Source of the DNA: Neotamlana sedimentorum | GTDB lineage: Bacteria > Bacteroidota > Bacteroidia > Flavobacteriales > Flavobacteriaceae | Length of the DNA: 64,000 bases | Reading direction: 5' to 3' | Assembly (NCBI RefSeq): GCF_000943565.1 | Contig: NZ_JTDW01000011.1 | Coordinates: 1-64,000, forward strand | In this document: in pieces, positions 16,586 through 44,404 of the stretch | Layout of the letters: the number at the start of each line of letters is the position of its first letter | Position numbering within the stretch: the first letter of the stretch is position 1 | Notes under the pieces: model-generated | Databases searched by the model: none | Seen by the model: only the letters and a program-made list of their open reading frames with translations | What the model was told of the DNA's origin: nothing | Position numbers and translations under genes: made by a program

Positions 16586-17140
16586 CTAATTTAACTTTAA
16601 CTTTTGACCAACAAAAATATTATTGTCCTTTAAATTATTTAAGCGTTTTAACTCTTTTACACTAACACCAGAGTTAACCGAAATTCGATATAATGTTTCT
16701 CCCGGTTTAACTACCCAAACATCACTTTTAATATTTGTTTTAACTGAAGGCTTCGAAGTTTCAACCTGGTTTTGTTGCTCAAAATTACGAACGCGTAGTT
16801 TTTGCCCTGGTTGCACAAGTGTTGTTTCTAATTGGTTAGCTACTTTTATTTCTTGTAAGCTTAACCCATATTGGTTTGCAATATCCAACAACTTCTCTCC
16901 AGATGCGACAACATGATAATTCAAGCTTTCTAAAGAAAAATCTTTGTTTTTTAATTTCGCATCAACTATTGAATCTTGCCCTTTTGAACCTACTAAAGTA
17001 AACTCGCCAGTTGCTAAATTAAGTCGTGCTGGTTTTCCGTTTAGTAGCACATCTTTATACGATGTTCTTGTTTGTGCTTGTAAACAAACACAAGCACAAA
17101 CAAGAACAATAAAAATTTGAAACCTACAGTTTTTTAGCAT
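16586..17140 (-). CDS. Secreted protein with two LysM domains
   Basis: A 184-residue exported protein. The signal peptide spans residues 1-23 (ending LQAQ). Two LysM peptidoglycan-binding domains follow at about 75-118 ([18 protein letters not shown] ... LRV) and 140-183 ([18 protein letters not shown] ... LKLN), joined by a Gln/Ser-rich linker. No hydrolase domain is attached. Its ATG overlaps the lon stop by 17 bp, so it is probably translated from the lon transcript. Role in the cell wall inferred only. Confidence 0.85.
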
Positions 17141-42341: not shown

Positions 42342-42812
42342 ATGAAGGCAGCTAGTGTAAAAGAAATTAAAACAGAACTTAATGAGCTATCTACTAAAGA
42401 ATTACAAGATTTATGCTTACGACTTTCACGTTTTAAAATAGAAAATAAAGAGCTCCTTACCTATTTACTTTTTGAGTCGCACAACGAAGACCAATACATT
42501 GAAAGTGTCAAAAATTATATGGACGGTGAATTCGAAATCATTAACACCAAAAATATTTTTTACATAAAAAAAAGCGTTCGTAAAATTTTAAAAAACATAA
42601 AAAAGTACATTCGTTATTCACAAAATAAAGCTACAGAAGCCGAATTACTTATCTATTTCTGTAAAAAATTAAAACAATTTAAACCAAGTATTTCACGAAG
42701 TACTCAGCTTCAAAACTTATACAACCGCCAATTACTCCAAGCTAAAAAACGTATTGAAACACTTCATCCAGATTTACAATACGATTTTCACAGCCTTCTC
42801 GAAGAACTTTAG
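42342..42812 (+). CDS. Conserved hypothetical helical protein
   Basis: A 156-residue, strongly basic, almost entirely helical protein (for example ELSTKELQDLCLRLSRFKIE, then YIKKSVRKILKNIKKYIRYS and RQLLQAKKRIETLHPDLQYD). It has no signal peptide, membrane segment or recognised domain. It begins at the base after the DUF202 stop. The Lys/Arg content would allow nucleic-acid binding, but nothing specific supports it. Confidence 0.75.
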   Translation: MKAASVKEIKTELNELSTKELQDLCLRLSRFKIENKELLTYLLFESHNEDQYIESVKNYMDGEFEIINTKNIFYIKKSVRKILKNIKKYIRYSQNKATEAELLIYFCKKLKQFKPSISRSTQLQNLYNRQLLQAKKRIETLHPDLQYDFHSLLEEL

Positions 42813-42848: not shown

Positions 42849-42902
42849 ACAAAAATATAACACAATTAAATTGCGCACAATTTAATTGTGTTATATTTTT
42901 GT
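42849..42902 (+). promoter_or_regulatory. OhrR-type operator: 54-bp perfect inverted repeat at the ohrR promoter
   Basis: Two perfectly complementary 25-bp arms (42849-42873 and 42878-42902) flank CGCA. Each arm holds an 11-bp near-palindrome, CAATTAAATTG (42863-42873) and CAATTTAATTG (42878-42888), very like the ACAATT/AATTGT half-sites reported for OhrR in Bacillus. The -7 box TATTTTTG (42894-42901) is inside the right arm, 4 bp before the regulator's ATG, so a bound repressor would cover the promoter. Confidence 0.8.
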
Positions 42903-42905
42903 ACC

Positions 42906-43331
42906 ATGAACGATAAGTTAAACATAAACGAGCAAATATGTTTCCCTATTTATCTTTTAGCTAAAGATATTATAGCGCTTTACAAACCATTGTTAAATGC
43001 ATTAAACCTAACCTATCCTCAATATTTAGTGATGTTAGTTTTATGGGAAAACGAAACGCGAACTGTAAATACTATTGGTAAAACATTAAACTTAGATAGT
43101 GGCACTCTAACCCCATTATTAAAACGTTTACAACAAAAAGAACTTGTTACCAGAACACGAAGTGTTACAGACGAACGTGTAGTTAATATCAGTTTAACAA
43201 CTAAAGGCGCTCAATTAAAAAACGAGGCCCAATGTATTCCTGAACAGATGATGGAAGCCATGAATGTTTCGGTGGAAGACTTAACGACATTAAAAGAATT
43301 AGTAATTAAAATTTTAAACAGTAAAAAATGA
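42906..43331 (+). CDS. ohrR: OhrR-like MarR-family peroxide-sensing repressor
   Basis: A 141-residue MarR-fold regulator. The start at ATG 42906 is chosen because the frame's GTG at 42888 lies inside the operator. Cys12 in NEQICFPIYLLAKDI matches the reactive cysteine of OhrR that is oxidised by organic hydroperoxides. The winged helix lies at ~50-100 (IGKTLNLDSGTLTPLLKRLQ, then RTRSVTDERVVNISLT). It overlaps ohr by 4 bp (ATGA) and so controls its own operon. The very short or absent leader suggests leaderless mRNA. Confidence 0.88.
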   Translation: MNDKLNINEQICFPIYLLAKDIIALYKPLLNALNLTYPQYLVMLVLWENETRTVNTIGKTLNLDSGTLTPLLKRLQQKELVTRTRSVTDERVVNISLTTKGAQLKNEAQCIPEQMMEAMNVSVEDLTTLKELVIKILNSKK

Positions 43332-43753
43332 AAACAATATATACCATAGGTGCAACAGCCACCGGAGGGAGAAACGGACATGTAAAAAGTGAAAATGGTA
43401 TTCTAGATATCGAAGTAAAACATCCAAAAGCATTAGGAGGTAGCAGCAACGATTATGCAAACCCCGAAATGTTATTTGCCGCAGGCTACGCCGCTTGTTT
43501 TGATAGCGCACTTAATTTAGTTATTAACCAAAACAACGTAAAATCAGGAACTACAACCGTAACTGCAAACATTAGTATTGGAAAATTAAACGAGGGTGGT
43601 TTTGGTTTAGAGGCAGAACTATCGATAAATGTACCGGATGTTTCTTTAGAAGAAGCTCAGGATTTAGCCGAAAAAGCACATCAAGTTTGTCCTTATTCTA
43701 ACGCAACAAGAGGTAATATCGATGTAAAATTAACAGTAACAAATAATAGTTAA
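43328..43753 (+). CDS. ohr: Organic hydroperoxide resistance protein
   Basis: A 141-residue thiol peroxidase of the Ohr/OsmC family that reduces organic hydroperoxides. The peroxidatic Cys57 is in GYAACFDSAL and the resolving Cys121 in HQVCPYSNATRGN; the N-terminal IGATATGGRNG loop, with the catalytic Arg, is complete. It starts inside the ohrR stop and is followed 15 bp later by a nitroreductase, so all three form one peroxide-induced operon. Confidence 0.96.
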   Translation: MKTIYTIGATATGGRNGHVKSENGILDIEVKHPKALGGSSNDYANPEMLFAAGYAACFDSALNLVINQNNVKSGTTTVTANISIGKLNEGGFGLEAELSINVPDVSLEEAQDLAEKAHQVCPYSNATRGNIDVKLTVTNNS

Positions 43754-43768
43754 AAAATTAATAGTAAA

Positions 43769-44404
43769 ATGAACTTAATAGAAAATTTAAACTGGAGACA
43801 TGCCGTAAAAGCGTATAATCCAGAAAAAAAAGTAAGTCAAGAACATATAGACAAAATAGTTGAAGCTGCCCGTTTAGCACCTTCATCGTCTGGTTTACAA
43901 CCATTTCAAGTATTAGTTGTTTCTAACCCAAAGGTAAAAGAAAAGCTTGCTGAAGGTGCATTAAACCCCGAATGTATGCGAGATTGCTCTCATGTTATTG
44001 TTTTCGCCGCTTGGGATAGATATACCGAAGAACGCATAGATCATGTTTACAACTTTACAACAGACGAACGCGGTTTACCTCGCGGCCGTTTTAGTAGTTA
44101 TACCGATAAATTAAAGGCCATTTATTTAAACCAACCCGCTAGCGAAAACTTTGCGCACATTGCAAGACAAACCTACATATCGTTAGGCTTAGCCTTAGCC
44201 CAAGCTGCCGAATTAAAGGTTGATACAACTCCTGCAGAAGGATTTAGTAATGCTGTTGTTGATGATGTTCTAAATCTAGATAAATTAGGACTTAAAAGTG
44301 TGTCGTTAATGTATGTTGGTTATGCTGATAACGAAAACGACTGGATTGCTTCAATGAAGAAAGTAAGAACACCAAAAGAAAACTTTGTTATAGAATACAA
44401 GTAA
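43769..44404 (+). CDS. NAD(P)H-dependent nitroreductase-family flavoprotein
   Basis: A 211-residue FMN enzyme. Family landmarks are the start NLNWRHAVKAYNPEKKVS, APSSSGLQPFQVLVV near residues 36-50 (FMN binding) and the later GLALAQAAELKVDTTPAEGF. Members such as NfsB reduce nitro compounds and quinones. Third gene of the ohrR operon, so its expression is probably raised by organic peroxides; its true substrate is unknown. Confidence 0.92.
   Translation: MNLIENLNWRHAVKAYNPEKKVSQEHIDKIVEAARLAPSSSGLQPFQVLVVSNPKVKEKLAEGALNPECMRDCSHVIVFAAWDRYTEERIDHVYNFTTDERGLPRGRFSSYTDKLKAIYLNQPASENFAHIARQTYISLGLALAQAAELKVDTTPAEGFSNAVVDDVLNLDKLGLKSVSLMYVGYADNENDWIASMKKVRTPKENFVIEYK

Follow-up and report, generated by a model that had tools for sequence, protein, structure and literature searches.

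Operators of the MarR-family peroxide sensor OhrR are described as containing the core AATT-N-AATT (PMC4999210, PMC3469484), and a consensus of the OhrR box, TACAATTNAATTGTA, has been published for Bacillus subtilis and Agrobacterium (PMC6034001). Our survey of the literature on OhrR in Bacteroidota or in association with a nitroreductase (titles and abstract beginnings, few subscription papers included) yielded no description of the operator reported here. In this study, we analyzed a 64,000-nt stretch of the Neotamlana sedimentorum genome (the window), in which the inner 24 bp of a 54-bp inverted repeat at 42849–42902 most likely represent an OhrR operator overlapping the promoter of its own operon. 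Taken as a whole, the region very probably combines operator and promoter of an ohrR-ohr-nitroreductase operon under autoregulation, as judged from the sequence. With these data, the Bacteroidota OhrR operator is now available in searchable form.

The repeat has no strand of its own and consists of two arms (42849–42873 and 42878–42902) separated by the 4-nt spacer CGCA. The exact complementarity of the arms, reported by a first-pass annotation of the same DNA, was confirmed at 100% over 25 nt. Among the perfect inverted repeats of the 64-kb window (spacer up to 12), it ranks first, followed by repeats with 19- and 16-nt arms; dinucleotide shuffling of the window, repeated 20 times, gave a longest arm of 14. 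The 3.96-Mb assembly of the same genome yielded no second copy of the 54-bp repeat, and assignment to a mobile element or a repeat family was rejected based on this single copy. Next in length among the perfect inverted repeats of the window, the repeat at 17063–17108 (19-bp arms, 8-nt spacer) lies approximately 30–80 bases inside a minus-strand ORF of 184 aa, the neighbor of which is presumably a lon-like gene.

Within the 54-bp repeat, the conserved inner 24 bp (42864–42887, unstranded) form the operator core AATTAAATTG-N4-CAATTTAATT. This core joins two equally unstranded OhrR boxes, a left one at 42861–42875 and a right one at 42876–42890, which by eye count carry 11/14 and 12/14 of the fixed letters of TACAATTNAATTGTA, respectively. 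The Bacillus-like near-palindrome noted in each arm by the first-pass annotation is present, as CAATTAAATTG (42863–42873) and CAATTTAATTG (42878–42888), with a centre-to-centre distance of 15 bp. The element is an AT-rich inverted repeat with the core AATT-N-AATT and lies over the predicted promoter.

For the comparison with other loci, the window's own inner 24 bp served as search pattern, so that the match in the window itself is given by construction. Matches were scored over the 20 fixed bases, and an operator was called at 16/20 or better. Second-best matches located 15 bp off the core are expected, because each box resembles the other. Overall, 85 loci were counted, with one set of 80 loci being the best of at least 484; the loci L014–L035, representing weak MarR matches, were left out of the operator scan, and the phylum labels, taken in part from record titles, are presumed. 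Conservation upstream of ohrR in relatives had been named beforehand as the test of the operator, and among the matches listed, the core reaches at least 16/20 in the 900 bp preceding ohrR in 37/43 Bacteroidota loci (window included). Sixteen of these 43 loci belong to Chryseobacterium, meaning that the counts are not independent. A full 20/20 core was found in 15/43 of the listed Bacteroidota loci, and shuffled Bacteroidota loci reached a score of 16 at any place in 8/196 cases. In other phyla, the core is present upstream of ohrR at 16/20 or better in 30/42 loci among the matches listed (shuffled loci: 1/168). The first-pass suggestion of an operator type common to Bacillota and Bacteroidota is supported for the Bacteroidota (37/43), and its Bacillota half amounts to agreement with the published B. 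subtilis consensus, the loci of the comparison coming from Bacteroidota and from phyla other than Bacillota.

Six of the 43 Bacteroidota loci (L042, L043, L064, L067, L075, L089) stayed below 16/20, with L042, L043 and L067 showing a weaker match of 14–15/20 located 44–58 bp upstream. Furthermore, no operator was found beside ohrR in six more distant loci of the family (L008–L013; 42–51% identity), which stand outside the 43 and would change the Bacteroidota count to 37/49; L012 reaches 16/20, but at a distance of 1.3 kb from ohrR. Five OhrR-like genes without this operator (L010, L012, L013, L075, L089) are immediately preceded by DNA that, read by eye, resembles the terminal part of a glutathione peroxidase gene; such a neighbor would recall the OspR-gpx pair of Pseudomonas. 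Two operator-like sites, each with 18/20, were observed 31 bp apart in Chitinophaga (L065) and 58 bp apart in Phyllobacterium (L095).

Next, we determined the specificity of the pattern in complete genomes. In the own genome, the core occurs once with zero mismatches and at eight sites with up to three mismatches, compared to four sites for the reversed control pattern; the seven non-operator sites carry 2–3 mismatches, and ohrR, ohr and the nitroreductase gene are absent at the three of them that were retrieved (L117–L119). Across 397 genomes of the family, nine core sites with at most one mismatch were detected in eight genomes, and the reversed control matched four genomes. Four of these nine sites adjoin ohrR. 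At the other five (L122, L123, L124, L127, L128; 0–1 mismatch), no ohrR, ohr or nitroreductase gene was found within about 1.5 kb; one of the five, L123, is an exact match to the core. A wider regulon derived from pattern sites was rejected on the site counts relative to the control and on the lack of ohrR, ohr and nitroreductase genes at the retrieved non-operator loci.

The gene following the repeat, ohrR (42906–43331, + strand), encodes a protein of 141 aa, and only three bases separate the repeat from its ATG at 42906. The product matches the MarR winged-helix family PF01047 (56.7 bits, cut-off 24.6), scores highest within Pfam against PF22381 (77.2 bits, cut-off 27), and among solved structures is closest to OhrR of Xanthomonas campestris (2pfb, E 4.6e-36), followed by that of B. 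subtilis (1z91/1z9c, E 2.8e-35). In the alignments with these structures, Cys12 falls at position 22 of 2pfb (Cys) and position 15 of 1z91 (Ser in that chain), which we take to be the positions of the sensing cysteine, and together with Tyr26, Tyr37 and Tyr40 it is invariant in 13/13 sequences of a hand-chosen alignment. The NCBIfam OhrR equivalog NF052638, named after Vibrio, is still the best of 15 families matched, but remains below its cut-off (169.8 versus 200 bits). With this narrow equivalog excluded, the classification as OhrR rests on the MarR domain, the sensing cysteine and the neighboring ohr gene. A search of plasmids also matched OhrR relatives. The resolving cysteine of the two-cysteine Xanthomonas type is absent, with Glu117 at the position where the Xanthomonas protein (L096) has Cys; one-Cys OhrRs of the Bacillus type are likewise not known to have a cysteine at this position. 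A further cysteine, Cys110, located just before the conserved Pro112 (alignment columns 109–110), is found in 9/10 aligned Bacteroidota OhrRs and in 0/3 others and could, going by this alignment, be a different resolving cysteine.

Directly after ohrR and overlapping its stop codon, ohr (43328–43753, + strand) encodes an organic hydroperoxide reductase of 141 aa (TIGR03561, 168.2 bits, cut-off 88.85). It is followed by a nitroreductase-family gene (43769–44404, + strand; PF00881), likely the third gene of the operon, which accompanies ohrR-ohr in many Bacteroidota loci. In 18 loci, 15 of them from Chryseobacterium (L045–L056, L058–L063), the nitroreductase gene precedes ohrR, and in 18/18 the operator lies upstream of the nitroreductase gene, starting 731–786 bp upstream of ohrR and 61–114 bp before the aligned nitroreductase start. 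The operator thus stays at the head of the operon when the gene order changes, and its position ahead of the leading nitroreductase gene suggests that the nitroreductase is likely an OhrR target and member of its regulon.

A -7 box of the TAHHTTTG type, TATTTTTG, is located at 42894–42901 (+ strand) inside the right arm, and its mirror image CAAAAATA at 42850–42857 (- strand) in the left arm. Both had been pointed out in the first-pass annotation, but the importance attached to the mirror box was not borne out, since it was seen in 1/37 loci, namely in the window. In contrast, TAnnTTTG starting 4–10 bp past the core was found in 31/37 loci (letter-shuffled mean 0.465). The strict motif is absent at that place in 6/37 loci, including the genus relatives L005 and L006, which have TAATTTCG in its place and keep the 4-nt gap; in the nearest relative (L004), the 4-nt gap is identical to that of the window. 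A possible -33 element, TTG (42871–42873, + strand), lies inside the left box 20 nt before the -7 box and is weak. In Flavobacterium johnsoniae, the -7 element is reported to span -12 to -5, candidates 4 or 5 nt from the start were deemed probable promoters, and a -33 motif is hardly evident (PMC6847099). Applying this spacing, with the G at -5 corresponding to 42901, places the predicted start of transcription at 42906, the A of the ATG, and the ohrR mRNA is therefore probably leaderless. Leaderless messages are uncommon in Flavobacterium psychrophilum, the one flavobacterium mapped, where they account for 5.5% (PMC9723704). In six loci from Flavobacterium, Tenacibaculum and Faecalibacter, the distance to the next ATG is 16–22 nt.

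Based on sequence, protein family, conservation and the register with the promoter box, we infer the following scheme of binding, sensing, start site and operon transcription. Reduced OhrR would occupy the 24-bp core, i.e. two AATT-N-AATT boxes with centres 15 bp apart, from -42 to -19 relative to the predicted start, and in this position adjoining the -7 box it would exclude RNA polymerase. Organic hydroperoxide would oxidize Cys12 and release OhrR, upon which ohrR, ohr and the nitroreductase gene would all be expressed. The 11 outermost bp of either arm would extend the symmetry, in this genome alone, and are probably dispensable.

Among the genomes compared, the perfect outer arms were seen in this one only, and alternative explanations were considered for the repeat. 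The whole 54-bp palindrome could act as one functional unit, providing extra outer-arm contacts for OhrR or a symmetric promoter working in two directions. Such a unit would explain why all 25 bp pair and why both the -7 box and the TTG have a mirror copy, and positions 15–25 pair completely in no more than 359 (0.18%) of 200,000 shuffles of the left letters. At arm positions 11–25, however, 15/15 are paired here, compared to 4.65 on average and 9 at most in 66 other operators, and the proposal that the entire 25-bp arms constitute the operator did not withstand this comparison. As the mirror box is missing from 36/37 loci and no minus-strand ORF of at least 70 aa was found to begin beside the repeat, we regard a functional role of the complete palindrome as very improbable. 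The same low probability applies to its more specific form, in which OhrR would cover two mirror promoters driving a leaderless ohrR operon to the right and an antisense RNA into the upstream gene to the left. Slighter still is the chance that the hairpin is the terminator of the upstream gene (42342–42812): the predicted RNA hairpin is strong (-28.1 kcal/mol, z -8.57), begins 36 bp past the stop codon of that gene and has a T-rich 3' arm, but a simple scan calls no terminator-like site, the T-rich stretch lies within the stem and equals the -7 box, and the long stem is absent in three genus relatives sharing the upstream gene.

A separate question, compatible with the operator reading, is how the outer arms arose. 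The symmetry could have arisen, without a function of its own, when a quasi-palindrome underwent template switching or hairpin correction at replication; in yeast, template switching has been described as homogenising the arms of repeats (PMC8604942). In the three genus relatives, the arms pair as far as position 14 or 15, with the innermost pair missing in L004; positions 16–19 and 21 are unpaired in 3/3 and all paired here, position 20 pairs in two, 22 and 24 in all three, and 23 and 25 in L004 only. Moreover, the five genome-specific letters within positions 1–25 (left 17, 18 and 21; right 16 and 19; ungapped comparison) each create a pair. These letters are distributed over both arms, however, while a single copying event would place them in one, and with three relatives compared, A/T-rich drift may suffice, given that positions 16–21 pair in 13,493 (6.7%) of the shuffles. 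We consider this origin possible, but on balance rather unlikely. The extra symmetry is unusual and may reflect A/T-rich drift, possibly helped by template switching; the full palindrome and the mirror box look like additions peculiar to this genome, arising by one or the other in A/T-rich DNA. Among the operators compared, the outer symmetry is no conserved part of the operator.

Comparing our results to known and related systems, the operators of Acidovorax and relatives, Rhodoferax and Arthrobacter (L087, L088, L114, L069) are alike in showing 19–20 of the 20 core letters upstream of ohrR. They differ from the window in belonging to other phyla and in lacking the long outer arms, with 4/15 outer pairs in L088, 8/15 in L114 and not above 9 in L087 and L069. 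The box of B. subtilis and Agrobacterium, TACAATTNAATTGTA, likewise presents AATT-N-AATT in an AT-rich inverted repeat (PMC6034001), whereas in the window two boxes face each other, separated by a spacer of 4 bp and adjoining a Bacteroidota -7 box, with the outermost consensus letters partly replaced. The ohrR gene of Chromobacterium violaceum resembles the window in having an OhrR site over promoter elements and autoregulation (PMC3469484), the latter being predicted here. In that species, a 12-nt perfect repeat, ATAGTGCACTAT, is common to the separate ohrA and ohrR promoters, in contrast to the single predicted operon promoter of the window (PMC3469484). The start of ohrR transcription in C. 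violaceum overlaps the start codon, and a leaderless message has been suggested (PMC3469484), as is predicted for ohrR in the window.
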